Assembly (NCBI GenBank): GCA_037176885.1
Contig: JAWWNJ010000047.1
Location: 1,302,001 to 1,366,000 of the forward strand
Length of the DNA stretch: 64,000 bases
Source: Favolaschia claudopus
Taxonomy: Eukaryota > Basidiomycota > Agaricomycetes > Agaricales > Mycenaceae
Direction: 5' to 3'
Shown: in pieces, positions 44,743 to 64,000 of the stretch
Numbering within the stretch: position 1 is the stretch's first letter
How the letters are laid out: each line of letters opens with the position of its first letter
Notes under the pieces: model-generated
Databases searched by the model: none
Told to the model about the DNA's origin: nothing
Seen by the model: the letters and a program-made list of their open reading frames with translations, nothing else
Made by a program: the position numbers and the translations under genes

Positions 44743-44865
44743 GAAAACTGCGCGCCCGATTACTGCAAAATTTCGATGCAGATCCCACTTCAGGCTACCT
44801 AGATATACCCCCCTAAGGGGTGGACCCTACCCATGACTTAACTGGCCCTAGGGGGGGTGTACTAG

Positions 44866-44971
44866 GTGTTCTGCCCCACGTGAGGTGGTGTTCCCCACCG
44901 TGTGGGGAGGTGAGGGTGCCCCACGGGAATCACGTAGGGTGTGGCTGCCCACCTGTAGGTGGGTTCCCCAC
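44866..44971. repeat. Short palindrome cluster related to the element ends
   Basis: Five degenerate GTG(G)G..CCCCAC palindromes with centres near 44872, 44891, 44917, 44946 and 44965. The first steps (19, 25 and 29 bp) repeat the 20-25-29 bp part of the pattern in the right terminal repeat of the KDZ element. Could be a remnant end of a related element. Confidence 0.5.
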
Positions 44972-45020
44972 CGCCTGCGTAAGACCCCCGGCACCGCCGG
45001 GGGAGAAAAAATGGTTTTTA

Positions 45021-45567
45021 CGCCCGTTTCTGCACCGTTTTGCATGGGTCTAGGTGCATCTTGGAGCTGTGATTTTTGTGGCTTTTATGAGCTATATATC
45101 AGACCGATTTGAGCACTTTGGTTTGATCGTTCACGGTCTGCCGCTGCTGGATTGCCAGCCCATTTTTGCTCCATTTCGCATGGGTCTAGGTGCATCTTGG
45201 AGCTGTGATTTTTGTGGCTTTTATGAGCTATATATCAGACCGATTTGAGCACTTTGGTTTGATCGTTCACGGTCTGCCGCTGCTGGATTGCCAGCCCATT
45301 TTTGCTCCATTTCGCATGGGCTCTGGGTGATCCTTGGAGCTAGGATTTTTGTGGCTTTTATGAGCTACATATCAGACCGATTTGAGCACTTTGGTTTGAT
45401 CGTTCACGGTCTGCCGCTGCTGGATTGCCAGCCCATTTTTGCTCCATTTCGCATGGGCTCTGGGTGATCCTTGGAGCTAGGATTTTTGTGGCTTTTATGA
45501 GCTATATATCAGACCGATTTGAGCACTTTGGTTTTGATCGTTCACGTTTTGCCTCAATGTGGGTGCT
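45021..45567. repeat. 137-bp tandem minisatellite, 4 copies
   Basis: The string GTTTGATCGTTCACGGTCTG recurs at 45121, 45257 and 45394, and in diverged form at 45531, so the period is 136-137 bp. Adjacent copies are nearly identical. The unit contains ATGAGCTATATATCAGACCG. No coding sense. Confidence 0.85.
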
Positions 45568-46059
45568 AGCAGGAATGACCAATGTGATATAAGTCGTTTT
45601 TACATCAAGCAAGTAGGCGGATACAGCTATATTACAAAGTGATATGTACTTGTTGAACATAAGACGTAAGAGTGCAGTGTCAATGCACATGTGGGTGACA
45701 GCGTAGGTATGTGGTACGGTTCAGTCAGGCTTACATCACGCAGAGTCTGTAAATCAAATGTGACAGTCAACAATACAATGAGTGAACACAAATCGAATCT
45801 TAACGCAAAGGCCAAAAAAACACTAAGTCTAAGTCAAAGAGAAATCAAACAAAACGAAAGTGGAATGGAACGGGCCATGCGGGAGTCGAACCCGCAGAAG
45901 CTAGCTGACATGATCGTGACAAATACATATAGGCGTACTTCTTCCCCGAGGGCCCTCAAAGAATTTTATTGTTAATACACATCATGTTCAAGCTACTGTA
46001 AAAATATATAATACATTCTGTTGCTCTCCATAGTTGGCTTTAGAGGCGCTAAACAATTT
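45568..46059. other. AT-rich flank of the element with a tRNA-like T-arm
   Basis: No ORF. On the minus strand about 45873-45958 there is a clear T-arm GCGGG-TTCGACT-CCCGC and a GGGCC/GGCCC outer stem, listed separately. Confidence 0.45.
45873..45958 (-). ncRNA. tRNA-like sequence, minus strand
   Basis: 5' GGGCCCT pairs with ATGGCCC (one mismatch). T-arm GCGGG-TTCGACT-CCCGC is perfect. The D-arm and anticodon arm do not fold canonically, so it is not called a normal tRNA. May belong to the transposon end, since the left inverted repeat could extend this far. Confidence 0.35.
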
Positions 46060-46171
46060 GCTTCCTTCTGCCTAAAAAGAAAACAGGGAATGTAAGTAGT
46101 GTGAAGGTCAATAATTATAATGAGACACGTACAATAAAGGTTTCAAAGTAAAAAGAAGTTGCAGAGACAAA

Positions 46172-46257
46172 CTAAGGGCCGGGGAATCGAACCCACGACG
46201 TCCAAATATAGACGTTTCCAAGGAAGGTATCATTACCTCTATACCAACCACCCTTCA
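46172..46257 (-). ncRNA. Pol III-type tRNA-like gene in the left TIR
   Basis: Minus strand: stem AAGGG/CCCTT, A-box TTGGTATAGAGGTAATG with D-stem GTAT/ATAC, a second hairpin ACGTC/GACGT, and B-box GGTTCGATTCC. T-stem pairing is imperfect. A diverged copy sits at the mirror position in the right TIR. Confidence 0.55.
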
Positions 46258-46348
46258 TTTAGTAGATAGCAAGTATGTCCCACATACGGTCTTTTATTTA
46301 ATGATCTACAAAATATCTAAAAATCTTCCAAGTCAAGCACGACAGCAG

Positions 46349-46622
46349 GTGGGGTTCCCCACTCTAGCCGCCGTAACTAAGGAGGATCCCCACCCTCTTG
46401 GCATTATGGTGGGCTACCCCACGGATAGTGGGCGTGGGGACCCCACACCGAGGTGGGCGCCCCCACGTTTCTTATTATACATCGTGGGGTTCCCCACCTC
46501 CTCTATTCTCAGCGGTGGGCTGCCCCACCTTGTCAAGCAGTTCGCCGTGGGGCACCCCACCTCTTTTTCTTCATGCGGTGGGGTTCCCCAAGTCAAGATA
46601 TTGTTGGGGTGGGGCTCCCCAC
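46349..46622. repeat. Helically phased palindrome array, left TIR
   Basis: Ten GTGGGGNNCCCCAC-type palindromes with centres near 46355, 46386, 46415, 46440, 46459, 46490, 46521, 46553, 46584 and 46615. The steps are 31, 29, 25, 19, 31, 31, 32, 31 and 31 bp. Spacers differ in sequence and are AT-rich. Likely protein-binding sites. Confidence 0.85.
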
Positions 46623-46769
46623 CCATTCTTGTTGCTTATTAAAAGGTCTTCATTCACAATAGCCATAGATTCACACCGTAGTTTGAGATTCAAAGTGAAT
46701 TTGAAACAACTAATTACACAATGTAGACATGATATAAACAATTCAAAGATATCATACAAAGTTCATGCG

Positions 46770-49700
46770 TTACAAGATATTCCACATCTCGAGTTGTCTC
46801 TGCCAACGGCCAAGGTTATACTCGCCTACAATAACAGGCGCAGTGCCTGCCGGAAGCCACCTCCACTTCTCTGCGCTTTCATCGTATATAACTGTTGCTC
46901 GATCAGCCGCACTTTGCTCCGCCACTTCTTTCAAATCCACCGCCTCCACCGTCATTCCCCTTTCGACAACGCCATCCTCGTTCTTACGGACCAGACGCAC
47001 CATCAACTTCTTGGTGGCAGGCGCTTCCGCATCAGAACGCGAACGTTTTGACGCGGGCCCCGCCTCGTCTCCATGTTCTGTTTGTCGTTTGCGCGACGGT
47101 CCCGCCTCCGCATCACGGCGCGGCGCCGGACGGGCCTTGGTGTTGAGACGCGTGAAATCCACGTGTGGTAGTCGCGCAGGCGCAGGCGCTACTGGTGCAG
47201 GTGGTCGGGAGGAACTTGAAGTGGCATGGACTGGAGGCTGCTTGAATGGTGGAATTGAAGGAGCCGACGACCTTGCCGTTCCATATCCTTGACCTTCGGC
47301 CGACGACGGTAGAAAACTGTTTCGGGGCGGCGGTGGGGCGGGCTCGTAACGGTCGGTGGGAGCTGCATTGTGACGGGGGAAGAAAGTATTGGAGCGATAG
47401 TCGGGCCCGTTGTACCCGTACCCTGAGTATGGATAACGATTGTCTTGCGGATAGTCGGACCGTCGCGGGGGATACTCAGAAGGCGGGGCTAGCGGAGCGG
47501 CAGTATGGCGCGCATCGCCGTGCAGTGGTGGGTGTCGATACCCGTACATGCCAGCGCCGTAGCTGGCCTCGTACCGTCGCGGAGCGGTGTTGCCGTACCC
47601 GCCTGTCTCTCCACGACCAAAGCCAAACCCGCCGTCGGGTATGTCGGTGGCATAGGCGGTGTTCTGACCCAGCTCACCTGCTCCATAATCGTTCGCAGCG
47701 GCTGAATAGCTGCGGGATGTAGGAGCAGCCGTGCGGGCAGGCGGCTCGTGCGAGCGCAGCCCATCTTCGTCCCCATGGTCCCCCAAATCCGTCCCCGCAT
47801 CCTCGTCTGCTTTACCCTTCCCCTTCTCATTCTTCTTCTCCTTCTCCTTACCCTTCCCTTTCCCCTTCTGTTTGCCTCCTGAGCTGTTCGCCTCGTCGAC
47901 CAGCGCTTTGCTGTGAGCCCCGCTCTCGCTCACCGCAACCACCACCCTGCCATTCTCATCGTAGATGACACCGAGGTCGCCCTGTTCTGTAAGCGAAAGA
48001 GCCATGTCCTCTGAATTACGGTGGATCAGTTCTGAGCGCGTGAAGGAAACCAAATTAATATCACATACCTGGATCCCACTCAACGATCTTCATGCAATTC
48101 TCTGAACCAGAGATCATACCCGGTAAGAACGTCTCCAGCATCGTCGTCGTCACCTTCTTCATTTGCCAATTCCCTCGCCCGATGATCAAATCTGCTTCTT
48201 GCAGGGCTTTCGGATAGTTGATGATCTTGGAGCGTGTTTCGTACGCCGTGTCGAGGAAGCGTCTTGACCACTGCATTGGAAAGTTGGCTCGGGTTTGGTT
48301 CGGCTCTAGTTTATCAGCAGCGCGACATCGATCGTCTGCAATAATGTTAATAAGACGGAAGGCTCTGAAAAGAAAGCGGAGGCACATACATAATTGGGCT
48401 GAAAGGATGGCTCGGAACTGCATTTGTTGGTCGTCGCGTTTTTTCGGTTTGACTTGACGACTCTGACGAAGGCGGGCAGGCGGTTCTTCGTCGGCCCCGC
48501 CGTGCTGTTCTGGGTCCGCTGCCTGTTGCTTCTGGACGAGACTGTGAAGGTATTAGATTATACAAGCAGCCACCATTGCCGGAGCGCCTACCGAAAATCA
48601 AACTCCATGTCTTCAAGCTGACTTTGGAATTCTTGTTCGCGCATGTTCTTGACAGCCAGATATTCGTCACCGACGCCGAAGTTGAAGCTTGCGTGACCCC
48701 GGGGGTCAACTGCCGATCCGCAGAGGAAGAAGCCGTATTCCTCTTGGATGACTTTCATCTGAACCATCGTCAGATTGGCTATTATACATAAGTAACAACT
48801 GACACTTACCAGTCTGTAGATCGGTTTCATTTGCTCACGGACCCTCGTCCTCAGTTTTCCCTCGTTGCGAAGATCCAAGATCAGTTGAGCCTTGTAATCC
48901 TCGTACCATTCCTTGATTTTCAAGTGTTGCAGCTGGGCATACACGGCGTCGAAGTCCCTTCGGTCGGAGGGAGGAAAGTCGGGACCGAGCGCATCTATGA
49001 ATTCTTGGCGTACATGTTTGGAGTATTCCCCGCCGCTGACTATATAATCGTAAGCACGTAAACCTCATGTACGAAAAACCGAGACATACATTTTCCCTCG
49101 TTTGGGTGGTGTGCAGCGTACCACGACTGGTACACATTCCACGGGGACTCCCCAGCCCCCACTCGCTTCCTGTCGCCCATGCAGCGGTACACGCTTTCCA
49201 CCGACTTGCCACACTCCTTCGCCAGTTCTGCCACCTTCTCATCGTACTCCTTGTCGAGTAGCGCCAGTTTGTCCAACGTTTCCTGTGGGATCGGACCCGA
49301 CCTTCCCTTGGAGCCTGCCTCCTCCCCGCTCTCGTCGTCTGAAGGCGCGTCATCCTTCTCCTTCTCCTTCCCCTTCCCCTTCGCCTTCGCCTTCGGATTC
49401 TCCTGGTCGGAGTCACCGTCGCGCTGCGACTTCCGCGTCCGCTTCTTGGCCCTCGGCTTCCTCGTCCGCCGCCCCTCGGAATCTGAATCACTCGACTCAG
49501 GTTTCTTGGACTTGCCTCCGCTCTTTCGGACTATGTGGCGCCGCGCATTGGACGCGCGCGCTCTAGCTGCTGCCGCTTCTCCCTCCTCCTCTTCCCGGTC
49601 GCTCGCCGCGTCGCGACTCTCAGTGTCTGAGCGCGGATGTAGGCGTTGTTGGTTCTGGTTTCGTTGGTTCTTCTTCGTCTCTTCGTAGTCCGAACCTGAC

Positions 49701-51185
49701 GTGCCTGACTCCTCGTCAGCGGCGGTGGCAGCAGGGGTAGGCTTTTTGGCTTGAGGACGCGGGCGCAGATCGTGACGAACGGGACTCGTCTGAACGTCTA
49801 CATAGCCGTCGTCGCTCAAGTCGTGGGCGGGTAGCTGGTCCTCCTGAGGATGAAGGTCCTCCTCGTCGTCTGATCTCGTTACAGGCGTTTCCTGGGCATC
49901 CACGTTTTGCTCAAGTCCTGAGCCAGGACCCCAGTCCTCCTCCTCGTCGTCCCCGTCGTCGCCATTGGTGAGGAATTGGTGGCGGTCTGCGAGGAGGCCG
50001 GCGTTTGCAAGTTGCTCGCGGCGTCCGGGCCACAGTCCACCACCACCGCGAGAGATTACGAAGTTCTCATCGCGGTTATAATCCATCCCCAGGACCCGCG
50101 CGCGCGGTTTCGGCCTGGGACCATGGGATGGCTTGGGACTGGGGGATAGCGGGAGCGCGGGAATGCTAGGAGAAGGAGGAAATTCGAGATCCTGCAAAGT
50201 TGTTATTGCCTGGGAATGTGCAAAGACGTGCAGATACTTACTGGAGTGCGCCTCGGAGATTCTGGCATGACCTGAGGTGGTGAAGATGCTGGCTGCTGTC
50301 AAGAACATTAGCTATAGATCCATGCTAGTCATATTCATACTTACCACGGGGGATGGCGCATCCGAGAACAGGACTGGACCTGGTGAGTGAGGAGTTTGCG
50401 GTAGGGGCCGGGAGGTTCGGGGCTCCGGAGTCTGAGGCTCTGGCGACGGCGTCTGAGGCTTCGGCGACGGCGTCTGGACATGACGAGGCGGAGCAGCAGG
50501 AGGAGCTGGTGTTTGTGGCTAAGAAATTGTTAGCGTTGTCGACAGCATCAAAAGACCGGTGGACGTACCCGGTCTCCATCTATATCATGCTCGGGAGGTT
50601 TGTCGACATCCATGTCGTCGTTGGTTTCCTTAACAAAGAGGTCAAGTCAAGCTCTTTCGTTTCAGCTGAAGGACATACCAACGGTGTCGGTATATGACGA
50701 CGGGGAGGAGGCGATTGTGGCTGAGGAATTGTTAGCGTTGTCGACAGCCTTCAGACACTGGGGAACTTACGGGCTCTGGCTCTGCCTCTGTATCATCTTC
50801 GTCGGGTTTGTCGACGTTCATGTCGTCGTCGTCGGAATCCTTGATACAGGGTGAGTCAGGTCAATGCTAAATGCTGAGCGTAGAGGGTACACACCGGACG
50901 CGTCGCCTTCTTTCCACGACGAGGCTGCTTCCTCGCTGGCTGACGTTTAGCTTCCTGTAACATACGTTGAGAGGAATGTCGAGATAATTGGCTGAGCTCG
51001 ACTCGTACCTTTTCAGTCGATTTGGAAGCGGCTTTCTTCTCAGTCCGTGCCCTTGCGCGAACTGCGGCTGATTTGGCGGCCGACTCTTTGGTTGCCGTCG
51101 TAGATGTCGTTGTCTTGCCTCTGGACCTCGTCGTCGGTTTCCCGGTTCTGGTGGCTTCTGCCTTTGCCCGTCGAGTTATTGCCAT
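46770..51185 (-). CDS. KDZ-element accessory protein, 1264 aa, charged
   Basis: Thirteen exons (51185-51009, 50954-50895, 50839-50771, 50720-50679, 50628-50569, 50518-50345, 50295-50242, 50191-49090, 49039-48810, 48758-48592, 48541-48390, 48335-48069, 48010-46770) join in phase. It starts MAITRRAKAEATRTGKPTTR (basic, AT-hook-like KPTTRSRGK). Then come a Pro-rich part made from duplicated exons, a long acidic/basic segment with KKPRAKKRTRK, and a conserved-looking region (WNVYQSWYAAHHPNEGK, then EFIDALGP and a helical stretch). The last exon has a Tyr/Gly/Pro-rich part and ends GRWQRQLEMWNIL. No known domain. The basic tracts suggest nuclear nucleic-acid binding, perhaps as a transposition partner. 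Confidence 0.7.
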
Positions 51186-52547
51186 TACGTTTTCAAATTG
51201 AGTGGAGTCGGAGTGTAGGTTGTACTGCTTGAAGTGGGAGCTGGAGGGCTCGACCGTAAAGTGAAGTTGAGAAGAGAGTTGGATGTTGTGGGGGGAATCG
51301 CGACAATGAACTCAATTTGGCAAGTCCGATTTCCTGGACAATGGTGGCCACTTGCTAGCCTCCATTAATGAGCCGAAAATAAGACCACACTCACTCTGCC
51401 ACCTTCCCTTCCACCTTCAATCTCGTTCTCGTCTCGTTGTCGCGCCGCCCTCTCAACGGTGTCTTTGCGCGTCGTATGCAGCCGCCTTACAATTCTGCTC
51501 GTCGCCAATCTGTGTGCTTTTACGCCTTCGCAAAGTTTTCTTGATATTCTTGATATTCTTGGGTCCGATGTCGACGTTGTCAAGTCAGTCTCTCACTTAC
51601 ATTTCCCGCGAATTACAAGAAACAAATGCATTGCAGGTCCAATCTACACCTCTAATAGTGTTCTTCTCAGTCCCGCTGTCACTTCAGACCGGTTTTCAAG
51701 TAAGTGGCAGCATGTCCAAATCGGGCTGAAAAAAATCCCTAATCAGGAAACGCCAAATTGCAGTCAAGACGAGCTCACCTTGGGTACGCTTTTCTGCCGC
51801 ATTCGTTGCTCCTGAATTCTTCCATGTAGACATCTATCTTGAGGCAGACTATGACCCCCGGGCTTTCCTTCTCAAATTCCATGCCACCGACGTCGTTCTC
51901 CCTAGCACATCAAGAAATCGTCGCGCATATTCTTGCTTCCGTTTGCGATATCATCACTGTAAGGCCTATGGTCAGACCCAGCGGAGATGGTATCAGCCAA
52001 TCGAGACGTGTCCATGCGTTGCCATCGTCGTCCTTGCTGCGCCGGCCGAGAAGTGCTGAAGAAATGTAAGTTTCTCTTTCCATGATAAGTAAAGTGTATT
52101 GTACTCACGCAAAGCTTTCAGCCGGACTCGTTTCGTCTACATATACCATCCCCGCGCCCCTTCCCTCCTTCTCTTCATCCTTCGCCCACCCGACATCGTC
52201 GTCAAGAGCCAGGGAGCGCTCAAGGACATGTAGATAACTAAAGTAACTGTCTATACATTACGAACATCATCTCTATGTACACCCGTCGGGGCCGTGCCTC
52301 CCCCCTCGTCGCTCGTCCACCCCGCTCGCTCTCCACTAACTTTCTGACCGTCCTCGTCGCGCTGGATGAAAAGTAAGTCTATCTTTCACAAAGTCGTAGC
52401 ATGCACTGTACTCACCCAACGCTTTCCCATATGCAAGTCTACACTTCCTCCAGCGTCCATCCCTTCGCCACCAGCCCGCCCACTCGCTCCCGACATGGTC
52501 GTCAAGAGCAAGTGGCAGCCGGCGCTATTGATGGCTGATTGGCCGTC
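51186..52547. other. Region between divergent genes with possible small genes
   Basis: On the plus strand, exon-like pieces near 51571-52231 give an in-phase reading (MSTLSSQSLTYISRELQETN, then ETPNCSQDELTL and IYLEADYDPRAFLLKFHATD) bounded by plausible splice sites. A competing frame runs through the last piece (LAHQEIVAHILASVCDIIT, ending VVKSQGALKDM). The block around 52020-52230 is repeated in degenerate form around 52290-52510, including a donor, an intron body and a GTCGTCAAGAGC string. A small gene or its duplicated remnant is possible, but I cannot settle the frame. Confidence 0.35.
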
Positions 52548-52624
52548 ATGTTCCAGCCTCGGCGGACGAGGGCGCGGAAGGCCGCTGCGGGGTTCCGCGC
52601 CCTCGTCCGCCGAGGCTGGAACAT
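52548..52624. repeat. Perfect 32-bp-arm hairpin
   Basis: Arms 52548-52579 and 52593-52624 are exact reverse complements around a 13-nt loop. The right arm contains TTCCGCGCCCTCGTCCGCCG, identical to 60338-60357. It lies 255 bp before the start of the Spt5-like gene. Confidence 0.9.
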
Positions 52625-52878
52625 CAGGCCCGGTTATGGCCGGCGTGGGAAATTCCTCTTCTTGCCCAAAACCTCCATGTCGAGCAGGTAAGTCTGTCGT
52701 CGCGTTGAACAGCGTAGTCAGTAGTTAGAGAATATGAAAGTTATGCACGAAACCTTTGAGTATCAGTGAACGCGCACCGTACGGCGCAAGTCCGCCTCAA
52801 ATTTGACTATGGCACGACTTTCAAATGCTTTAAGAATTTTCCGCGTCGGCGACGTTAACACAAACGCTGACGACGACT

Positions 52879-55800
52879 ATGGCGGCCCCCAGACCTTCAT
52901 CGCCTTCCATCCACGCACACGCGACGCAACAGGGAAACACCCCCAGTACGCCGCTGGTTAATCGTTCGGAATCCAAACTCACCAAAAGTATAGTGGATAT
53001 CGATAGCACAAAAGGCGGCGCGGAAGACTCTGGTACAATGCGCAAACGAACGCCCTTGTTCCTCCCCGACTCTCGCAATCCAACTCCGTACATTGGTCAA
53101 GGATTTCGCGAGACACCTTTCGCAGACGGATGGGAAGCATCTTTGTTCGAGGCAAGCAATACTCTTTCGTTTTCATTGTATAGACATGCTGACTTGTATG
53201 TAGCCGCCTCCTCCCCCGAAGCGCCGAAGAGTAGATCTAGAGGCAGAGCTGGGCGCGCGTGACGACGATGCGGAGGAAGAGGAAGAAGAAGAAGAAGAGG
53301 AGGAGGAGGAGGACGAGGACGAGGAAGAAGAATACATGCAAAGTTTTCGTCAGGCGGCGTCGCATAGCGAGGCCAGCGACGTGCGTAGGTTTCTGGATGT
53401 GGAGGCGGAGGAGGCTGGAATGAGCGAGAACTCGGATGACGAGGAAACCCAAGCGGATCGGGGTGCGTATGGTAACGCTGGCTCCTACTCGGTCCTAACT
53501 TGCTTTCTTTGTAGACTTCCTCGACGATTCAGAGAACATCAATCCAATCGACACCACCACGCCGGAACGGGACCCAGTCAGCGCCGCCCCATCTGAGGAA
53601 CGCTCAAGTATCGACGATGCCATGGAACGCCGCATCCAGGAAGTCATTGCAAGCAGAGCAGCTCAGTATCGCAAGGAGACGCTGGCCGAAATGGGACAAT
53701 ACCAAGGTGAGTACATCTTTCTCATTGACATATACGATTGTAATAAAGTCTCCTCCAGGTTGGACAGTCGTTCGAGAAGAGACTGTCACTCGAGAAGTCC
53801 TAATCCACCACCAACCGTTGGTGCACACCGCGACTCCCGCACCCCGCCCCCAAGCCGCTGTCGACCAGAATCACCACAATGGGCGCGCCTTAGCAGCTTA
53901 TCGATCACAGCACGCTCCCCCCGACCCCCGACTCCATCGAGACCTCGCCCTCACCTTGGTCGAGGTCACGAACCCGCTGAAGAAGGGTCAGTGGGTTCGC
54001 CTCGGATGGGGCAAAGACAAGGGTCGGCTGGCGTTCGTCATCGCAGGCAACACGCTCCTTGCGCCCGGTCGAAAACCGCCCGTTCTTCGCATCACCAAAG
54101 CCCGCCATAAAGTACATTTAATCACCCCCATCGACTACTTGGCCGCCACGAGAACCGCGCCACTCGCGGCCTATCAAGCTATTCTTCAGCAGGCGACCTA
54201 TCAAGAATTGCAGGTCTTTGTGCGCAGTAACCACGCCGAGTTACGGCGTTTAGTCCATACCGACCTGTCGCCCGCGCTCAGACCTGGGGATCGGGTAGTG
54301 GTGGTTTCGGGGGAGTACAAGGGGCAGAGCGGGTTCATTGCGCGCGTGAAGGTCAATGAGGGCAAGGAATACGCGCGAGTAATCCCGGCGTACGACGGGG
54401 AATACGTGCCGGACTCGCTGGAAGCCGGGATATATCTCGAGACGACGGATCTGAGGCGGCACTTCCTCGACTTTTCTTTCGCCTTACAAGTCGGTGATCG
54501 TGTGCGAACGGTGGACGGGAAGGAGAGCGGTCGTGTCAAATCATTCGACTGCTATGGGACGCAAGTAGCCCTGGAGCGTGATGCGCTCGGCAACTACCCC
54601 ACGCACCTCCTGGACGACATTGTTCGAGTCTGGGAAGTAGGAGATGTCGTGCGCGTTCGTTGGGGCAACCATGAGGGCCGTGCGGGGTACCTGGTAAAGG
54701 CCGATGAACGAAACGGCATGGTCGAAATATATGATGTGAGTATTACCTCGTTTTTCCATACTTAACATCATCTAAACGTTTATACTTCAGCTGGATCGTA
54801 TCGACGGAACAGGGCGTCCAAACCGTTGGGAAGAAGAACACCTCGTGAGTTATTCTGATTTTATACATATTTCTTGAAAGCTCAAACACTGCACCAGTTT
54901 CGTGTACGAGCGGCCGATATTGACTTCGACACTATCGGCGACACCGTGACTTATGCTCCCATCGTCAACTCCGTCCGTCAAGAAGGGGCAGACATTCACT
55001 TCAACGTCGATGGCGACCGCCTGATATCGCCGCCCCAAGGCCTCAACGTGGTCAATCCTCGCAAGGATCCGACCGCGCATTACATCGGATTGGGGGTTCT
55101 CGTTGTAGCTACTGGGGCGATGAAGGGTTTTCGAGGAACGGTGACTGGAGTCTACAATAGCGAAGATCGTGCGAGTCGGCTGCGACGTCTGGAAGAACAG
55201 TGGGCTGAGATTCGGTCGCAAGAGGAACGCTCTCCAACGGCAAAAGGACTTGCAGAACGACTTCGTGGAATCGACATCGGCGCTCAAAACGCTCTGGCAA
55301 AAGCAGAGAAGGTGCATGAAGGTCTTCTGCTCACCATTCGAAAGGCAGAAGCGGGCGAAACGGTGCAGCACATACGAATTGAGGATGTGGTCCACGAACG
55401 GTATGGAAACATTTCTTGATCATCTCCAATCTATCTAATCATGTCACCGTTGATCCAGGACCATGGTACCTTTACTCAAAACGAGAGGCATGCTTGATAG
55501 GATTTTGCGGGGAAACCAGGTGATAGAAACGACGCAGCAGCAATTCAGCCTCTTTCCACCGCTACCACCGCCTCCGCGACCAGTCACGCCTTGCCCGTCT
55601 CCCACCGATGAACCGCTCTGGTGCAATGACTCCCTCAAGCCCAGAATTGAAGGTATGGAGCTAATCCAGGGGGTAGATTGACTTTCGGCTGACGGTTTTT
55701 TATTTCAGGCGAAGAAGATGGCGAGTGGCTTTGTATTCCGGGGCTGGCGATGAAACGGCTGGATGTGATCGTGGTGGGGGTTGCGGAGGTGGAGGCGTTA

Positions 55801-56250
55801 AGACCTAAGGTCCGCGAGATGGAGGGGAAGCGAGGGTATATACTGGTGGAGGAAGACGTACCGTCTCGTGGTCCAAAGAAACGAGAGTTGAAGAAAGTCA
55901 AGAAGGCAGACAAGATTGACGTCTACGGGGCAACGGTGGGCGGTCTCAAGCACCCTTTGGAACGCAAATACGTTCGCCCTTGTCGCACATCTGATGATGG
56001 GCGTTTGCTGACTGAGGTAATGGAACGGGTGGTGGTAATAGGCGCAGACGTGTACCGCAACCTCAGTGAGCGAGGGTCTTATGGCTTTACAGCGCCGCAC
56101 ATTCAACACCCGCACGGCTTTGAAGTCGTCGCCGTAGATTTTGGGCAGGGACAACTCGCTTTTTTTCATATCTCAAGTCTATGCTTCGCCAAAAATCAGT
56201 CTATTGCCTTACGCGACAAAGTATTCAATGTAACCACGCTCGATAATTAG
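52879..56250 (+). CDS. Spt5-like protein with repeated KOW-type motifs
   Basis: Eight exons (52879-53151, 53204-53462, 53515-53706, 53759-54735, 54791-54844, 54898-55400, 55459-55652, 55709-56250) give 997 aa. Intron 1 is GC-AG. After a PPPPPKRRRVDLEAEL segment comes a long Asp/Glu run and FLDVEAEEAG, as in the acidic N-terminus of Spt5. KOW-like turns follow at about 317-332 (KGQWVRLGWGKDKGR), 417-440 (PGDRVVVVSGEYKGQSG), 484-501, 532-551 (VGDVVRVRWGNHEGRAG) and 648-671 (LVVATGAMKGFRGTVTG). No NGN domain was seen. Spt5 binds RNA polymerase II and nucleic acid. A transposon copy could influence its own transcription or bind nucleic acid, which is inference. Next gene: the transposase, same strand. 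Confidence 0.75.
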
Positions 56251-56339
56251 CACAATATGTTACTATGTATATCAATGAACTTTTGCCATCGCTCAAATAA
56301 CGACGGACTTGAAGATTTTGGCCACTCTCGGCCGAGAAC

Positions 56340-56410
56340 ACCGAGGCGGAAGACCGAGGCGGGCTTCCGTGCCCTGAGCCGCCGCAGTGTGGGCATCTTT
56401 GGCGCTTGAC
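56340..56410. repeat. GC-rich intergenic motif, copy 2
   Basis: GGCGGAAGACCGAGGCGGGC followed by TTCCGTGCCCTGAGCCGCCG resembles the hairpin arm at 52593 and the motif at 60325, with changes. It lies in the 330-bp gap between the Spt5-like gene and the transposase. Confidence 0.6.
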
Positions 56411-56582
56411 GGCGGGCACCGCATTTTCTCTCTTGCTTCCCGCCACTACTGTCGGTACCATACTTGTACATTTTATAATGAAATATGAGAATAGTTTCAA
56501 AGCACATAACGAGAGGACAATGAATGCCACCGAGTACTACAAACACCAACTCCACCCAGCGTGCATTGCTTGCTTTCCACCC

Positions 56583-59500
56583 ATGGCCAAGATATCTCGG
56601 CGCGCACGGGCGAAGGCTTCGGCTGGAGTGGAAGCGGCGGCCTCGTCGCCATCGACGTACAAGCTACAACGAGGACCGCCCGTCCCCAATCCTCGCCGCA
56701 AACCAACACTGAAAACCCCACGTCGAGATGTCCTCCTCGGCAACGGACGAACTTTGGTGCAGCCTCATGTGCTCCCGAAGAAAAAACTACCTCGTATCAA
56801 CTTCAGCGCGTCCAGCGAAACTGAGCGCAATGCCACCGACAATTTCGACCCCTCCGCCTCCTCCTCCCACCCCGACGCATACCACATCTCGTTTCTCCAT
56901 GACCAGACGGACCATGGCACTTATCAGCGCAAGAAGATCACGCAGTCGACCCGCTGGCAGGAAGAGGTGCTCCCCCTGCTCGTACCAGTCCTGGCGACTC
57001 TTCTACAAGAAACGAAATCTCTTCGCGATCTACATTCCACTGGTCGTTCGCCACGACACTCGTCCTGCAATTGCCCTGGAAGAAATCTCAAAGTCACTAT
57101 CGTGCGCTGGGCCTGTGCGTATACTTCACCTTGCGCCTCGTTGCGCTCGTACTAACAATTCTCCGTGCAGCTATGGAAGACGTCCACCTATTTGTCTGCC
57201 CTTGCGCTCCCGCCCCAGTCCAGCTCATGCGCCTTGGGGCGTTTGGCTCCTCCCCCGTTCATCCGTCCTTGGCTGTGGATCTACACGTCCTGGAATTCTT
57301 CAGAAACTTATTCTTGCAGGTCTCCCCGAACACGGCTGCAGTCAGCAAGACCTTGGAGCACGTATTGAGCGAAATGGGTTTCCAGCTAGATCATGAAGTA
57401 AGTCCCCGCCGCCCCTTTCTTCACCTACAGTGGCTGAAGATTCATGTAGAATTCGCTGCGCCGACGCTTTGGAAACTGTCTTAGCTGGTACACATATCTA
57501 CGGAACCTGCTCAAACACCATTACGCGCAGAAGATTGAGTTGGCTCGGGACGAGGTGGTGGGACCGCGCCAACCTCCATCTATGGAAGAACCACGCGGCC
57601 GTTCACCAACGCGTTCAGGAAATCGTGAAGCCTCGTCATCTGTCACCCCCACGCCGCGAGCGCCCCGCCGGTCCTCCTCCTCCTCCTCCTCATCTCGAAG
57701 CACCTCTCCTCCGGCCAGAACGCGCAAACGCCGACGGTCTCCTTCACGGTCGCCTTCACCCGCCCCTCAATCCAAAGATACGCCCTTCCCTGAGCCTGAA
57801 GCTCGCGAGCGTCCCAGCGAATATCTCCGACGTCGATGCCCTCTCTGCTTTGGGAATCTGAAGCACGACCCAACCCAGAAGTACGTCCTTTGCTTGATCT
57901 TTCTATCTATGAACCTGATGGCTTTTAGATTCGACGTACCAGCATGCACCGACGCGTGTTTTGGACAAAAACACAACCTAACTAACGCGATCGACGCTCT
58001 GAAAGCATTCCCGGACACCCGATTTATTTCTGAAGACGTCCTTGCACGAATGGAGGAGTACGTCGACAGCCAGCGGAAACCGAGTCGGAGACGCACCAAG
58101 AAGCCAAGGCACAATAAAGAGGACGAGGAGGAGGATGATTACGATAGCGCTGGACAGAAACTGCCGCGCTCCGTGCTCGACGCCTGCGAGGCGTCGTTCA
58201 AGGCCGCCGACGAGAAGCGCGTCAAAGCCAGCACCAAGTTCTTCGACAACACGGGGCTCATGGCTCTGGTCTGCCGTCACGACAACGTCCTATTCCTGGC
58301 CAACATGAAATCTGCGGGCGAGAAACAGTTCTATGTGCTCGCTCTCATAGAAACTTTGTTCCAGCATCTGCCCACGGATATCCGCGTTGGACTTTTATAC
58401 GACGTCGTGTGCATATTGGAGCGGAGCTGCCTGAAGTGGGGGTTCTTGGAGCGGTATATGGACCGCTTGGAATTTGCCGTGTCCGTCTTTCACGCGTTTG
58501 GACACGAGTGGGCGTGTCAGCTGGTATACCACCCGCGGAAACGCGTTGGATTTGGTTTCACTGACGGTGAGGGGTGCGAGCGGTTTTGGAAATCAATCAA
58601 GCACCTCATCGCACACCTACGGATCTCGGGGGTGAGCAGTCTAGGCAGGGTGATTCAAATGCGCTACTAAATCATTACTCACAGTATTATAACCGTTTGT
58701 ACACGCTGGATGCCCAGATCACCCACAATGACGAACAGAACCTCTTCCGTGCTGGGGAATGGCTTCTGCGTCGATACCGGCGCTGTATGAAGAAGCGTCG
58801 TGAAGCCGCCGAGAAGCTGCGTCTTTCGGGAAAGTCGCCGACGGAACTACGGGAGCAGTTTGCGTTGCAGGTTAAGGCTCAGACCAAGCCCTTGGCTCGT
58901 GCGTTTGACCTTGAATCACGTCTGCATCTCACTGAATTCATTCCCAGGCCAGAAAAAAACCAACGGGGAAAAATTCGTCAATTCTATCATCATCCAGCGA
59001 TCCGTAGTCGAAACGCGGACGGCTCGCGTGGAAGACCTCACCGCCGAATTCCTTGCGGCGGCCTCGGCGGAGAATCCAAGCGCGGCCGTCCTCGACACCG
59101 AGCTGCGGGAAGCGCGAGAGGGTTTGCGCAAAGCGAAGGAGACGCTGCGAAAGAAGGAGCAAGCCTTGGGCCTCGCAAACCGTGAAGACCTGCGAGCTCT
59201 TGCGAAGAGCGAGTACATGCGAGAGCTGATGAACGCTCAAGCCTTGTTGTTGAGGACGCGAGCGCGCCTGCGCACGCGAAAATTCGAGCTTGACGCTGTA
59301 GAGCGCTCATTTAGACGTTTGCTGAGCCGTAAGTGATTTCCTTCCATTGTTAAGAGCCAACGCTGACTCTCTTCACAGAGACTAAACTACATGCCCACAC
59401 AGAGTCCGCCGTCAAACGCCGGGAGCCCACGATCAGCAAGCTGGCCGCACGATACAACAAGGCTTGCCAGAAGGTGGCAAAGCTCATCAAGGACGGCAAG

Positions 59501-60173
59501 GCCCCGCCGCACGCGTTGGCGCCCTCTGAGATACCACCGGGGGGGTTGTGGAAGCTCGACGTGGACGACGTCGTCTTCCAGGATATTGCTTTCGACGACG
59601 ACGAAGCCGAGGCTCCGCCGCTGTGGCTTTCGGACGACAACGTTCGCGACGGCATCAAGGCACTGCTGGAGCTCGACCGATGCGACGAGGAGGATGCGCG
59701 CTTGTTGAGGGAGAAGATCGCGATGAGAGAATGGTTTGCAGAGGAATGGGAAGTGATTCAGAGGGCCGTGGACTCAGCCGGTGCGACAGCTGGGTTTTCC
59801 TTTCCCATTGGTTTTACTGACATGTTTAACAGAGTCCGACGTCGACAAGTACCATTTCAAGCTACATCAAACCAAGCTGCTTCGTCTCTGCAGCGTGTGG
59901 GATAAAGCTGCCCCGGACTTGGGCGAAGACAAGTCCTTGTTACGGGCTTGGGGTCCGTCTGCGATTGAGCTGGCTCAATGCCGTTTACGTGCTCACTGTG
60001 CTGCGCGCGGAGAGGATGATGATGACTCCGATGACGGGGGTGAGCCGGTTGAGGTTGATGGTGAGGAGGAGGAATATGAGGTGCTCGAGACGCTTGAGCG
60101 AGCCGATAGTTACCGTAACGAAGCCGTGGATCACGACGATGTATTAGAGGACATGGACTTCTTTGCAGATTAA
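56583..60173 (+). CDS. KDZ (Kyakuja-Dileera-Zisupton) transposase
   Basis: Eight exons (56583-57114, 57171-57397, 57450-57880, 57929-58631, 58685-58898, 58948-59328, 59379-59780, 59833-60173) join in phase to 1076 aa. The N-terminus has a CxC-type zinc cluster (CNC about 160, CPC about 187-189), then the family segment HPSLAVDLHVLEFFRNLFLQ. CPLCFG near 383, CTDACFGQKH (Asp about 404), FFDNTGLMALVCRHD (Asp about 503), LLYDVVCILERSCLKWGFLE, FHAFGHEWACQLVYHPRKRV and DGEGCERFW (about 609-617) are hallmarks of the KDZ core, an RNase H-like fold. The acidic residues are candidate catalytic ones. The C-terminus is helical and acidic. All motifs are intact, so it may be active. It should cut and rejoin DNA at the element ends. 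Confidence 0.92.
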
Positions 60174-60254
60174 ATCTACTACGCTGTACATCATATATAC
60201 ATTATGTACCCTATTGCACTATTCATACAACGCGTGAACCTGAGGCACTTGCAT

Positions 60255-60276
60255 ACGCGACGCGACGCGACGCGAT
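60255..60276. repeat. CGCGA microsatellite
   Basis: ACGCGACGCGACGCGACGCG just after the transposase gene. The complementary GTCGC repeat occurs at 63216-63240. Confidence 0.7.
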
Positions 60277-60324
60277 CACATGGTGTCACGTCATGCGGTC
60301 TCCCGCGCCCATGTCCGCCGTTTT

Positions 60325-60363
60325 GGCGGAGGCGGTCTTCCGCGCCCTCGTCCGCCGGGCTGC
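60325..60363. repeat. GC-rich intergenic motif, copy 3
   Basis: GGCGGAGGCGGTC followed by TTCCGCGCCCTCGTCCGCCG (60338-60357, identical to the hairpin arm at 52593-52612). It lies in the gap between the transposase and the next gene and can form a short hairpin. Confidence 0.75.
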
Positions 60364-60755
60364 CAACAAAGATGTGCCATTGTTTGCTGCGGGCGCCTAT
60401 TGCTCCTTGTCTCTTGCCACCATGTCGAATCGTCGATAATATAGTTTTGCCTATTATAGAACTGTAAACCGTACAATACCGTAGTAACACGTAGAGGAAC
60501 AATAGAAGACAAATCGCAGAACCGATGAAGGCCGATGAAGGTTCACTGGCCAAGTATCCGAGCATTGTTCGTGCAAGCGAGCGGTCGTTGGCGTGTCCGA
60601 ACAGGCCGATGCCACCAATTGGTTTCCGGGAAAGGAAACGTCTGGTACGAGGATTCTCCATTATAAAAACCGCTAATTCCTCTGCTTCAGGGATGTATCA
60701 ACGCCTCATTATATCGACTTTCGTCCTCCTCATCTATCTTACTCGTGTTTTCACC

Positions 60756-61951
60756 ATGCCAGTCGACCGCACCCCCTCGATGCCTCGCCGAGCAGTCGTG
60801 CTCAACCGCAAACCCCGAGTTTCTGAACCCCAGTTGCCACCCGCTCCCCTGATCACGCCTCGAACGGAGAAACAGAAACGAAGGCGGGAGTTCTTCCTCC
60901 TTGAGCAAGAACCCAGTCGTATTGCTGCGAACAAGAACATCTGCGCGCTTTTGGCTGATATGGGTACGTTTTCCTGCGCCACTGATCGTGTTCTCCACTG
61001 AGCCTTCATGAACAGAGGCAAATCCTGAAGATTGGTACAAACGCTTCTTGTACGACACCGCTGGTGAGTTCTTCGTTCACTCCGCCGGACAGTGCACTGA
61101 TATTGATTAGTTGAAGACTACGAGATCGACTTCTGCAAGTTCGTACCCGACAGTGAGGTGGAGGTCGTTGTTAGCCAGATGGACGCGGCCACAGCGAAAA
61201 TCGAAAAATTGCGAACCGCAATAAGTGAGTCTTTTTCTCCTGCTACTATCTCTGGCTCGTCCGCACTCACACACGGCGCACAGAGTACGGCAACGTGGTG
61301 GCCAAAAGCGACGCCGTTTGCGCCTACATGGCTGCCATCAAGCAATTCCATACCGACTTCGGTGTCTCTTACGAGTCCCAGGCCAACGACGGGGCGGACG
61401 CGGACATCGCCCTCAAATGCGAGATGATCCAGCTGTACGTCGACAGGGTCAAGCCGATGGATTCGTTCGATTTCGAACTGCGCGTCGGGACGTGGGAGAT
61501 GGAGATGTTGTTCATCAATCCACACCGCCTTGACGATCCGCGTCGTTTGCAGCTCGACGCTCGGCGTACGTGATTATTGCTTCCTTCTTTTATGCTGTAA
61601 TTTATTGTTACCTTTCAGTTCGCAAACTCGTCGCTGGGTGGAAGAAAGTCCCTGCCGACTCTCTCCCGCCCTTTGACGATCACAAGGGGATCCTCTTTCG
61701 GCTCTTCAACGACTACAGCTCGCACCCCAGGGACCTTGCCGCCATTGAGCGGTATCTTCAAAGTACGTTTGTTGTGGTTTTTTCCTTGATTTCTATCTTT
61801 TACTGACTCATTACTAGTGTCGATCTATTATCAGACGTTGAACCGTTTGCAGAACGAAGCATATGAGGCCGCCAAGACCGTCGTGCCCTCCAAGATGCCT
61901 CGTCCGCGCGCCGTTGCAGAACCCAGGAAACTTCGGGAGTTCAAGCTGTAA
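60756..61951 (+). CDS. KDZ-element protein, 309 aa, unknown
   Basis: Six exons (60756-60963, 61016-61063, 61111-61224, 61284-61565, 61619-61762, 61818-61951) join in phase. The N-terminus is basic and Pro-rich (MPVDRTPSMPRRAVVLNRKP), followed by KQKRRREFFLLEQEPSRIAA. Then come a helical, mostly acidic body (EANPEDWYKRFLYDTA, SEVEVVVSQMDAATAKIEKL, FGVSYESQANDGADADIALK) and a C-terminus MPRPRAVAEPRKLREFKL. No domain is recognised. An in-frame upstream ATG would add a hydrophobic MYQRLIISTFVLLIYLTR leader. The later ATG is preferred because of the basic start. It lies downstream of the transposase on the same strand, so it may be an accessory factor. Confidence 0.7.
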
Positions 61952-62323
61952 TTAGCCGTCTGTTTTTTGTTTTCTTTGTGCTTCGTATATTGTTTATCCT
62001 CTGTTGTATTACAATGAAATACGGTTCTATGTAATCTCGTTGAGTGAAACGTGTGAAATTGCTTGACGAACGGCAAGTCGTATAAGCGTTGAAGGTGCGT
62101 TACAATTTTGCATCGATAGGCAACAACTATCTAATACACGAACAGAAACATGGAAGGCACGAACGGCATTAATAAGTAATAAGTAATCAAGAGATCGTTT
62201 GGAACTACAAACTACAGGAACATAAGAAAAAGAGGAATACAAGGCACGAATTACATGAGTAAGTAAGAAACAAGAGATCGCTTGGAACTACAAAGTGAAG
62301 CACTCAAAGAAAAGATAGCTAAT
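61952..62323. other. Gap between converging genes
   Basis: AT-rich. The strings AGTAAGTAA(T)AA..AAGAGATCG(T/C)TTGGAACTACAAA occur twice, near 62170 and 62260 (about 82 bp apart). Nothing else seen. Confidence 0.5.
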
Positions 62324-62912
62324 CTACGAATCAACCAAGTCCCTCAAAAGGCGCGTCACCCTGACCGCCTTTTGGATCCCCCCCCGAAGGCGGCCGATTT
62401 CAAACTTTTCGCGATGGTGTACGCGGCAAGCCTCGCACGCGCAGGGTTTCTTCCATAAGTCGCTGGTCTTCAAATACAAGTGTAGACACCGTTCTTGAAG
62501 AATTTTGGGAAAGAAAAGGACAGATTCAGATGTAAGACTCACCTAGCTTTTTTGCATAACGTGTACGAACTTTATCGACGACAGTGATACGGCACCCGCG
62601 GCACTGCCGGCGCCATTGGCGAAGGCGGCGCTGCATATTGTCGGTGCGGCCCGCCTTCCACTCAACTAACCCGCTTTGATGCACCATTTTCAGCCAATAC
62701 ACGACGCCGGGGCGGTCGGACGGGGACGGCCGTTTGGCGATGGCGCTGTGGACGTCGCCTCGCCTATAGATTTTGTTGTACAGCGTCGACTGGTCGTGGA
62801 GGTCGCGGTCGAGGCGGGCGAGGCGGGCGCGGCGGAGGCGGCGGGCTGCACAATGAGCGCCAACGACATTGAAAAGGTAAGTGTACTCACTGGTATTAGA
62901 CGAGGTATTCAT
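62324..62912 (-). CDS. GIY-YIG/T5orf172-type nuclease-like protein
   Basis: Exons 62912-62891, 62845-62543 and 62493-62324 give 164 aa. The core runs VVYWLKM (55-60), EWKAGRTDNMQRRLRQWRRQ (69-88), then Glu108 in KKLERCLHLYL, and ends CACEACRVHHREKF (125-138). The order (Y.., K.GRT.N...R...W, E, C..C..HHREKF) is that of fungal T5orf172/MUG113-like GIY-YIG proteins, whose core is an endonuclease fold. Conserved Arg and Glu are present, so catalysis is possible. An unspliced longer reading of the first exon into Ser/His-rich sequence exists. It lies next to the right TIR on the opposite strand, so it could be an accessory nuclease. Confidence 0.7.
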
Positions 62913-62949
62913 ACTGTGAACAGTACGAATAGGGCGGGAGAGGCGGGTG

Positions 62950-63215
62950 TATGCGGATGTGGCGAGCGCGCTGCGATTGGACACAACGCGGGGAGGTGAG
63001 AGGGAGGATGAGGCGCCGGTGTATGCGCGTATGTCGGTGTTGTGAGCGCCGGTATGCGGGTGTATGCTGGTGTGGTGAGCGCGCTGCGACGGGGGCACAA
63101 CGCGGTCAAGTGAGAGGCGGGTAGGGTGTGTGCGTTTGTCGGCGGGTGTATGTGTGTGTCGGGGCGGTGAGCGCGCTGCGACGGGGGCACAACGCGGTCA
63201 AGTGAGAGGATGGAA
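62950..63215. repeat. Minisatellite next to the right TIR
   Basis: The string GTGAGCGCGCTGCGA(C/T) plus ACAACGCGG(T/G)..GTGAGAGG occurs three times (about 62960, 63075 and 63168), with GTGTATG-rich links. On the minus strand it encodes Pro/His/Thr repeats that may be an artefact. Confidence 0.7.
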
Positions 63216-63281
63216 AGTCCGTCGCGTCGCGTCGCGTCGGACTTGCGTGCGTTTGTATGCGTCGGCGTCGCGTCGCATCGT
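63216..63281. repeat. GTCGC microsatellite
   Basis: GTCGCGTCGCGTCGCGTCGG and, 30 bp on, GTCGCGTCGCATCG. Reverse complement of the repeat at 60255. Confidence 0.7.
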
Positions 63282-63454
63282 GAACTCGTTCAGTTGTGTA
63301 TTTCTGAACGCGTAGGTAGGTGCTTTACATTTATACAATACATATTCTACTTGCCTGCTAAACAGTGAATGTATTCAATAAAAGGAATAGATATTTAAAT
63401 ACGCGTTTGAATCAGCGGATGAGAATCTAAGTGAACGATCAACTATTAGTAGGG

Positions 63455-63696
63455 GTGGGGAACCTCACCGCATCAAATATGGGGTGTGGGGCAGCCCACA
63501 ACTAAGAATACCGACGGTGGGGACCCACACGGCGAGAATAGACACAGTGGGGAGCCCCACAATCTATAATAAGAAAGGTGGGCGCCCCCACCTCGGTGTG
63601 GGGTACCCCACGCCCACTGTTCGTGGGGTAGTCCACCGTAATGCCAAGACGGTGGGGAGCCTCCTTGGTTACGGCGGCTCGGGTGGGGTTCCCCAC
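63455..63696. repeat. Helically phased palindrome array, right TIR
   Basis: Nine palindromes with centres near 63461, 63492, 63523, 63553, 63584, 63604, 63629, 63658 and 63689. The steps are 31, 31, 30, 31, 20, 25, 29 and 31 bp. This is the mirror image of the left array, including the 20+25 irregularity. Several right-end palindromes have single mismatches. Confidence 0.85.
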
Positions 63697-63786
63697 ATGC
63701 TGTCGTGCTGGACTTGGAGATTTTGAGTTACTTTGTAAATCATTAAATATAAAACCGCATAATGAACAATCTTGTTGTCTACTTTG

Positions 63787-63875
63787 CTAAGGGTGATTGG
63801 TGAAGTGGTAATGATACCTTCTCCATTGGCCACGTCATTCGTTGGACGTCGTGGGTTCGATTCCCCAACCTTTAG
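63787..63875 (+). ncRNA. Pol III-type tRNA-like gene in the right TIR
   Basis: CTAAGGGT pairs with ACCTTTAG (one G-U). A-box TTGGTGAAGTGGTAATG, hairpin ACGTC/GACGT, B-box GGTTCGATTCC. The left copy pairs AAGGG/CCCTT, so the outer stem is kept despite sequence change. TTTTT follows near 63892. Confidence 0.55.
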
Positions 63876-64000
63876 TTGGTCTCCGCAACTTCTTTTTATT
63901 TCGAAAACTTTTGTGTTTATTTTATGTGTCTCATGATACTTATTGAACTCCATACTGCTCACATTCCCTGTTTTTTTTCTAACTATAGCAGAATGAAGCT

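Follow-up and report, generated by a model that had tools for sequence, protein, structure and literature searches.

Subterminal palindrome arrays with fixed arms and family-specific centres in Kyakuja-like KDZ transposons of Favolaschia claudopus: candidate recognition sites for an element-encoded protein

How might a giant KDZ transposon mark its ends, and how might related families that share a genome be kept apart? The question is raised by a 20,059-bp element of Favolaschia claudopus that begins within the 64,000-nt stretch analysed here (the window, C47:1302001-1366000; coordinates below are window positions, and the genome comprises 264.6 Mb in 460 contigs). This Kyakuja-like KDZ transposon, a copy of what we call family A, occupies 44786..64000 and continues to C47:1366844 (= 64844), its last 844 bp lying past the window edge; its limits are set by shared termini and an exact target-site duplication (TSD). 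The analysis centred on this element, and 1-44 kb of the window was skimmed. Towards each end it carries a row of palindromes with the core TGGGN4CCCA: ten in the left inner array (46349..46622) and nine in the right inner array (63455..63696), which is the inverted-repeat partner of the left one. We think it rather probable, on the basis of sequence comparison, that such arrays are family-specific cis-acting recognition sites for a multimeric protein encoded by the element, either its transposase or a TNPA-like protein encoded by its left-hand gene.

The palindromes are real and not a product of chance. The window holds 14 exact matches to TGGGN4CCCA where 1.03 are expected, and none of 100 shuffles has more than four; of the 14, 13 fall inside the two arrays. 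The pattern of the original prediction, allowing up to three mismatches, occurs 41 times, against 21.8 expected and at most 30 in 100 shuffles. The nine or ten palindromes per end that had been claimed are present. Exact GTGGGGNNCCCCAC is found at four of the ten left sites and three of the nine right sites; the weakest sites, 46380 and 63652, have three mismatches each, and one left-array site is 13 nt long, its centre being a single nucleotide. Centre-to-centre steps are 31, 29, 24.5, 19.5, 31, 31, 32, 31 and 31 bp on the left and 31, 31, 30, 31, 20, 25, 29 and 31 bp on the right, such that the predicted spacing of 30-32 bp describes six of nine left steps and five of eight right steps but not the remainder. 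An irregular step at the mirrored place is indeed seen in both arrays. This is trivial, however, because the two inner arrays are the arms of one inverted repeat (pieces I1-I5 are 77-87% complementary), and their mirrored layout is inherited rather than independent. Positions 46349 and 63696, which had been taken for the ends of the element, are interior, the true termini at 44786 and 64844 lying 1.1-1.6 kb further out. About 30-190 bp from the terminus there is also an outer cluster of imperfect palindromes (44817..44972; steps of 49, 19, 26, 28 and 19 bp), which was absent from the prediction.

Arrays of the same general kind stand beside the KDZ genes of five families in this genome, with fixed arms (TGGG-N4-CCCA) and a centre that depends on the family. 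A search with the terminus recovered family A, together with family B and B-like elements at ~80% identity over 73 bp. The choice of families C and D was made by their KDZ gene, the presence of arrays being unknown beforehand, and both have arrays; family E was picked by its arrays, and a KDZ gene was then found. In family A the site type is TGGGSNNCCCCA-like, with a centre that is mostly SNNC and half-sites that are mostly TGGGG or TGGGC. Family B has the centre YTAR in 25 of 35 exact sites and the half-site TGGGY, and family E, with the site type TGGGANNTCCCA, has ANNT in 22 of 22 exact sites and the half-site TGGGA. Families C and D mostly have GC-rich centres: CGGC or GCCG accounts for 6 of 13 exact sites in C and for 8 of 21 in D. 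All four centre positions depend on family, with mutual information of 0.57-0.83 bits against a null maximum of 0.28, a value inflated by the relatedness of sites within arrays (141 distinct rows under eight labels, with B-like, F and G kept separate and outer sites included). By their sequence class and their distance, arrays F and G correspond to far ends of D and C copies, and are therefore probably not extra families. The spacing also varies: steps are mostly 31 bp in B and B-like arrays (one array has steps of 21-22 and 52-53 bp), mostly 30-37 bp in C and D, and mostly 18-23 bp, with some of 29-39 bp, in E; a step that stays close to 31 bp characterises families A and B. Agreement across the transposase core is 0.89 between C and D, which share one centre class, and 0.67-0.73 among A, B and E, which have three centres. 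The termini are alike in all five families while the arrays differ; the terminus pattern CACTTYAGGCNACC has 35 matches, versus nine for the reversed control, and the C and D arrays start ~80 bp from a terminus ending CTAAAGTG.

Across the whole genome there are 434 pairs of TGGGN4CCCA sites 0-30 bp apart, a number that includes repeated copies and overlapping pairs, versus one for the reversed control. Class-specific array searches gave 75, 83 and 32 matches, versus none in controls. Of 177 KDZ matches found, 150 were listed, and 22 of these lie within 25 kb of a listed array, with arrays on both sides in 16 cases; the array lists behind this association are partly class-specific. These cases are concentrated in a block of 23 ranked matches, C188:271768 to C244:47064, of which 19 have a listed array within 25 kb, as compared with 3 of the other 127. 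A lack of arrays in related KDZ elements had been named as the result that would speak against the prediction; arrays were found in both family C and family D, and beside those 19 block matches among the arrays listed. Five short family E elements (on C42, C64, C92, C97 and C170), spanning 4.8 to 7.5 kb, have array sites at both ends and no listed KDZ match between them. Because of the association with KDZ genes and these short elements, the arrays look characteristic of this KDZ clade. A scan of viral contigs for three phased sites gave a single match (L035), an unrelated 16-bp tandem repeat.

The arms of the palindromes are better conserved than the sequence between them. In five family A arrays, pairwise differences affect 0.077 of arm cells and 0.249 of spacer cells, about three times less in the arms, with a mild bias since the eight arm positions were chosen by a match with at most one mismatch in one reference row. 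Corresponding values for arms and spacers, from one pair each, are 0.036 and 0.089 in B, 0 and 0.060 in E, and 0 and 0.144 in D. The spacers had been described as unrelated. This stands for the left array of the window (within-array identity 0.36 against 0.33, P 0.27), but the spacers are homologous between the two ends and weakly related in the right array (0.42 against 0.30, P 0.03) and in another family A array, on C61 (0.43 against 0.33, P 0.018), each of these tests using only 3-4 units per array. In four B and B-like arrays the spacers are clearly repeated (identity 0.50-0.62 versus 0.27-0.31). Given repeated spacers and conserved arms, the arrays are best seen as decayed tandem repeats whose arms have been maintained. 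Arm conservation and family-specific centres lend indirect support to a reading of the arrays as binding arrays.

Whether the sites lie on one face of the DNA, as the prediction had it, was assessed against a null in which each distinct class of step is shifted at random and repeated classes are kept together; an earlier test against independent random steps gave P < 0.05 in 9 of 11 arrays, and we use the stricter result, 5 of 11, instead. Coherence at 10.3-10.6 bp has P < 0.05 in these five arrays and P of 0.05-0.075 in three, and is absent in the other three. The values are 0.88 (P 0.013) and 0.79 (P 0.065) for the left and right arrays of the window, 0.96 (P 0.038) and 0.94 (P 0.001) for two family B arrays, 0.52 (P 0.16) and 0.72 (P 0.075) for two B-like arrays, 0.22 (P 0.69) and 0.29 (P 0.55) for the downstream-end arrays of C and D, and 0.77 (P 0.012), 0.63 (P 0.038) and 0.77 (P 0.054) for E, F and G. 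Summed over eight arrays, coherence is 5.23 versus 2.60 +/- 0.49 under the null, a sum reached in 0 of 4000 draws; the independent cases are few, since A and B share ancestry and F and G probably do too. The idea of a common face gains support from family E, which is phased although its steps are not 31 bp. It holds for five arrays, including the left array of the window, but not for one B-like array or for the C and D arrays, and is thus not general.

A dimeric, element-encoded protein that assembles on the ends would fit sites whose arms are symmetric, whose centre is family-specific, and which form rows at both ends and persist in short elements. We propose that each TGGG-N4-CCCA would be a two-fold symmetric site for one dimer, and that the TGGG half-site together with the family-specific central bases would be read by a protein of the element, the CxC-KDZ transposase and the left-hand protein being the likeliest candidates. 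The reader may occupy many sites in rows that tend to one face of the DNA, and the resulting nucleoprotein complex could pair the two ends and keep the families apart. What we infer in this scheme comprises binding, dimer binding, the identity of the reader protein, cooperativity, synapsis and self-recognition. The differently spelled centres of sister elements suggest private docking sites for each element's own proteins.

A comparison of families A and B bears on which genes could have changed with the arrays. Identity in 500-bp bins is 76-92% at 52.3-56.8 kb, 76-99.8% at 60.3-62.8 kb, 62-73% in the transposase (~56.8-60.3 kb), and 74-82% in the first kilobase, which includes the outer cluster; the left inner array with the left gene (46.3-52.3 kb) and the right array (63.3-64.3 kb) do not align. 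At 4-fold sites the transposase frames differ by 0.54-0.72 and the left gene by 0.63, as compared with 0.16-0.19 for a KOW-like (Spt5-like) gene; across families A-D the difference is 0.49-0.70 in the KDZ frame and 0.09-0.29 in the first KOW-like frame. Silent sites that look so saturated are hard to explain by recent positive selection alone, and speak for recombination between lineages that separated long ago. As judged from these comparisons, the inner arrays, the transposase and the left gene form the anciently diverged portion between A and B. The KOW-like protein would be a poor reader of the centre, because its first frame is 84-91% identical in amino acids across families A-D while the centres change. 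Tentatively, we suggest an address code, in which fixed TGGG..CCCA arms carry a family-private centre, a co-diverging reader encoded by the element winds the helically phased rows at both ends into a family-specific end complex, and recombination moves reader genes and arrays together while the KOW-like gene stays shared. The KOW-like gene is far less diverged at silent sites than the adjoining transposase, and has apparently been exchanged between families. Diverged reader genes alongside a shared KOW-like gene suggest that large fungal transposons exchange modules.

Several observations weigh against this interpretation. Four KDZ matches (C23:139210, C67:968215, C255:61743 and C90:461418) have no array within 25 kb among the arrays listed. 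Among 38 array groups, 20 have a listed KDZ match within 25 kb, as compared with ~2.8% for one random point, an association that is partly circular in that most of the array lists were built with class patterns derived from KDZ-linked families; among the unselected array groups listed, 2 of 7 (C8 and C12) have a listed KDZ match at this distance. For at least two array groups, on C64 and at C206:78572, the nearby KDZ match may not belong to the same element. Helical phase is missing in 3 of 11 arrays. The A-B comparison is one pair, in which only the inner arrays have co-diverged, the outer clusters aligning between the families, and in which the T5orf172 frame is also diverged (4-fold-site difference 0.44). 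The CxC-KDZ structure model (pLDDT 67.5, moderate confidence) gave no match at E<=0.001 in a fold search. Finally, only one end of the fully read B-like element on C49 bears an inner array, and in the B-like element on C69, the middle of which is unread, one is seen only within 3.3 kb of one end; since these two show a single inner array, the second one looks dispensable. As both elements have kept the outer cluster at both ends, this cluster may be the basic end signal, to which the inner array would add an enhancer-like or regulatory function.

An alternative with a real, if lesser, chance of being right is that the reader is the left-hand protein, acting as an analogue of TNPA, while the transposase recognises the shared CACTT terminus. 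The left gene (46773..50086, minus strand; our own gene model of 1017 aa with five short introns) is fast-evolving and a TNPA-like candidate: it has the lowest A-B amino acid identity among the frames compared (0.35) and adjoins an array, and the likeness of the termini across families with different arrays fits such a division of labour. Residues 265-665 of its product are a 100% match to R3P38DRAFT_3201453 (1264 aa as annotated by NCBI), and this core, the gene's own annotated protein aside, has no match at E<=0.001 among 5.8 billion proteins in a search that needed shared 5-residue words. Families A, B and C share a short segment of the protein, which is modelled, with moderate confidence from three sequences, as three helices. 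The passages of PMC2613891 on CACTA elements describe a comparable arrangement, with a fast-evolving TNPA on family-specific subterminal repeats and a conserved transposase. On the other hand, the annotated left protein has no Pfam match at E<=10, and no Pfam DNA-binding domain was found (the best was Sigma70_r3, 0.087); the fold search with the three-helix segment gave no match at E<=0.001; and no homologue of the left gene was seen in the part of the family D element that was searched.

It is unlikely that the arrays are sites for a DNA-binding protein of the host, such as a GTGGGG-binding C2H2 factor of the CreA/Mig1 type that drives or silences the genes of the element. The CreA site is SYGGRG, which GTGGGG resembles. 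A single host factor sits poorly with half-sites that differ between families A, B and E within one genome, and the two arrays of the window element are placed differently with respect to genes, lying downstream of the left gene on one side and on the upstream side of T5orf172 on the other; for the same lack of a common position in the window element we rejected the reading of the arrays as promoter arrays. Still less probable are neutral tandem repeats, in which a ~31-bp unit was expanded by slippage and the spacing has no function. The plainly repeated spacers of B and B-like arrays and the repeated step patterns of E, F and G are what slippage would leave, but arms are conserved while spacers decay, identical arms occur with different spacers and steps in five families, and the short E elements keep array sites at both ends. 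We give least credence to a role of the palindromes as hairpins or cruciforms, in DNA or RNA. Folded as single-stranded DNA, the left array comes out 6.3 sd below shuffles, as any palindrome array would, and pairing beyond the arms is kept only in the centre in E, where N1 pairs with N4 at every site, and in the flanks in A (0.92 of sites), whereas N1 and N4 are complementary in 0.15 of sites in C, 0 in D, 0 in G, 0.31-0.37 in B, B-like and F and 0.58 in A, and flanks pair in 0.14-0.54 outside family A.

The preferred reading, sites for an element-encoded multimeric protein, concerns an element whose remaining genes are as follows. The KOW-like gene consists of three long open frames (53515..56247, plus strand; frame limits, not exon limits) with matches to PF23291 (1.8e-5) and PF00467 (0.0034), both below Pfam cut-offs. 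A 45-bp inverted repeat upstream of it (52541-52631; 1 nt between the arms, 89% complementary) is found again in part at 60332-60357. The transposase comprises a CxC1 cysteine-cluster frame (56903..57481, plus strand; PF18802, 8.9e-7) and, 3' of it, the KDZ catalytic frame (57450..58667, plus strand; PF18758, 1.1e-50), which agrees with the original assignment to KDZ elements; many Mycena species are among the named matches of the KDZ frame. Further frames 3' of it (58791..60170, plus strand), conserved in families B, C and D, presumably encode the C-terminal part of the transposase. A T5orf172 frame (62529..63197, minus strand; PF10544, 3.7e-4, just above cut-off) lies near the right array; it is present in families A and B and was not found in the C and D stretches searched.

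The ends of the element also carry repeats other than the arrays. The termini CACTTCAGGC..GCCTGAAGTG are common to six two-ended family A copies, and the 7-bp TSD (CAGATCC at 44779..44785 on the left, the right copy being past the window) is exact in all 13 copies checked, which comprise six of family A, two of B, four B-like ones and one of E. Three of the B-like copies share a single pair of flanks, so the 13 represent ~11 independent insertions. A short B-like insertion has identical flanks on C49, C266 and C387 (L025, L021/L022 and L026), which are duplicated or haplotype contigs of the assembly. One family A copy (G000:C192:120005-162315) has an exact TSD and 42 kb between its ends instead of 20 kb, and probably holds a nested insertion. 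In the window copy the outermost 292 bp (44786..45077, plus strand) are 100% identical between both ends by blastn; inward there is an unmatched stretch, and then a 77% inverted repeat (left arm 46020-46590) that contains most of the inner array and a tRNA-like stretch. A 137-bp tandem repeat (45022..45553, plus strand; 3.9 copies) lies in the left terminal region; staggered matches between it and family B point to related repeats in that family. The tRNA-like stretch (left copy 46180..46255, minus strand, approximate limits set by eye; right copy 63787..63875, plus strand) has an identical B-box-like motif, GGGTTCGATTCCCC, in both inverted-repeat arms. ARAGORN found no tRNA gene in the inverted repeat, and the Rfam tRNA-Sec model scored the right copy at 21.1 bits against a gathering score of 47; the stretch may represent either the remains of a tRNA or a site of the TFIIIC type.

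A row of palindromic dimer sites ~30 bp apart is also found in the family of repeats of Epstein-Barr virus (EBV) oriP, bound by EBNA1, but oriP is a maintenance element of a viral replicon and the protein is unrelated. Among the papers that literature searches listed, none describes such arrays in KDZ elements in its title or the start of its abstract, and the papers listed or read, in part as passages, say nothing about the way in which KDZ transposases locate their ends; Boehne et al. 2012 is said to be the original Zisupton paper. Five families in one genome, with different centres in a fixed site and diverged candidate readers, make recognition testable by swaps of sites and proteins, and are a natural data set for rules of DNA recognition.

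Among described elements, the Kyakuja families of Laccaria are alike in their KDZ transposase, 7-bp TSD and 5'-CA..TG-3' termini (CACTTC..GAAGTG in the window element), and section 3.2 and further passages of PMC12730594 mention no subterminal palindrome arrays. The two Laccaria families are described there as lacking terminal inverted repeats (TIRs) (Kojima 2025, PMC12730594), from which the array-bearing inverted repeats are a departure; because of these and the 292-bp identical ends, we label the element Kyakuja-like rather than Kyakuja. The TET/JBP domain of TET+ Kyakuja families did not turn up among the frames scanned, although no search was aimed at it. KDZ1-KDZ3 of Cryptococcus are likewise DNA elements (~9-11 kb) with a KDZ and CxC1 transposase, but differ in their 139-241-bp TIRs and 8-bp (4-8) TSDs, and the passages of PMC12810828 that were read make no mention of such arrays. 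A parallel in layout is CACTA/En-Spm: as passages on the soybean Tgmt* element describe it, this 20.5-kb element has many short subterminal repeats that diverge between families and in some cases pair as palindromes (PMC2613891). It belongs to another transposase superfamily, with a 3-bp TSD and asymmetric subterminal regions, whereas the window element has a 7-bp TSD and a KDZ transposase, and each of its sites is itself a palindrome with fixed arms. By analogy, the element may work like CACTA/En-Spm, but it is not a member of that group.

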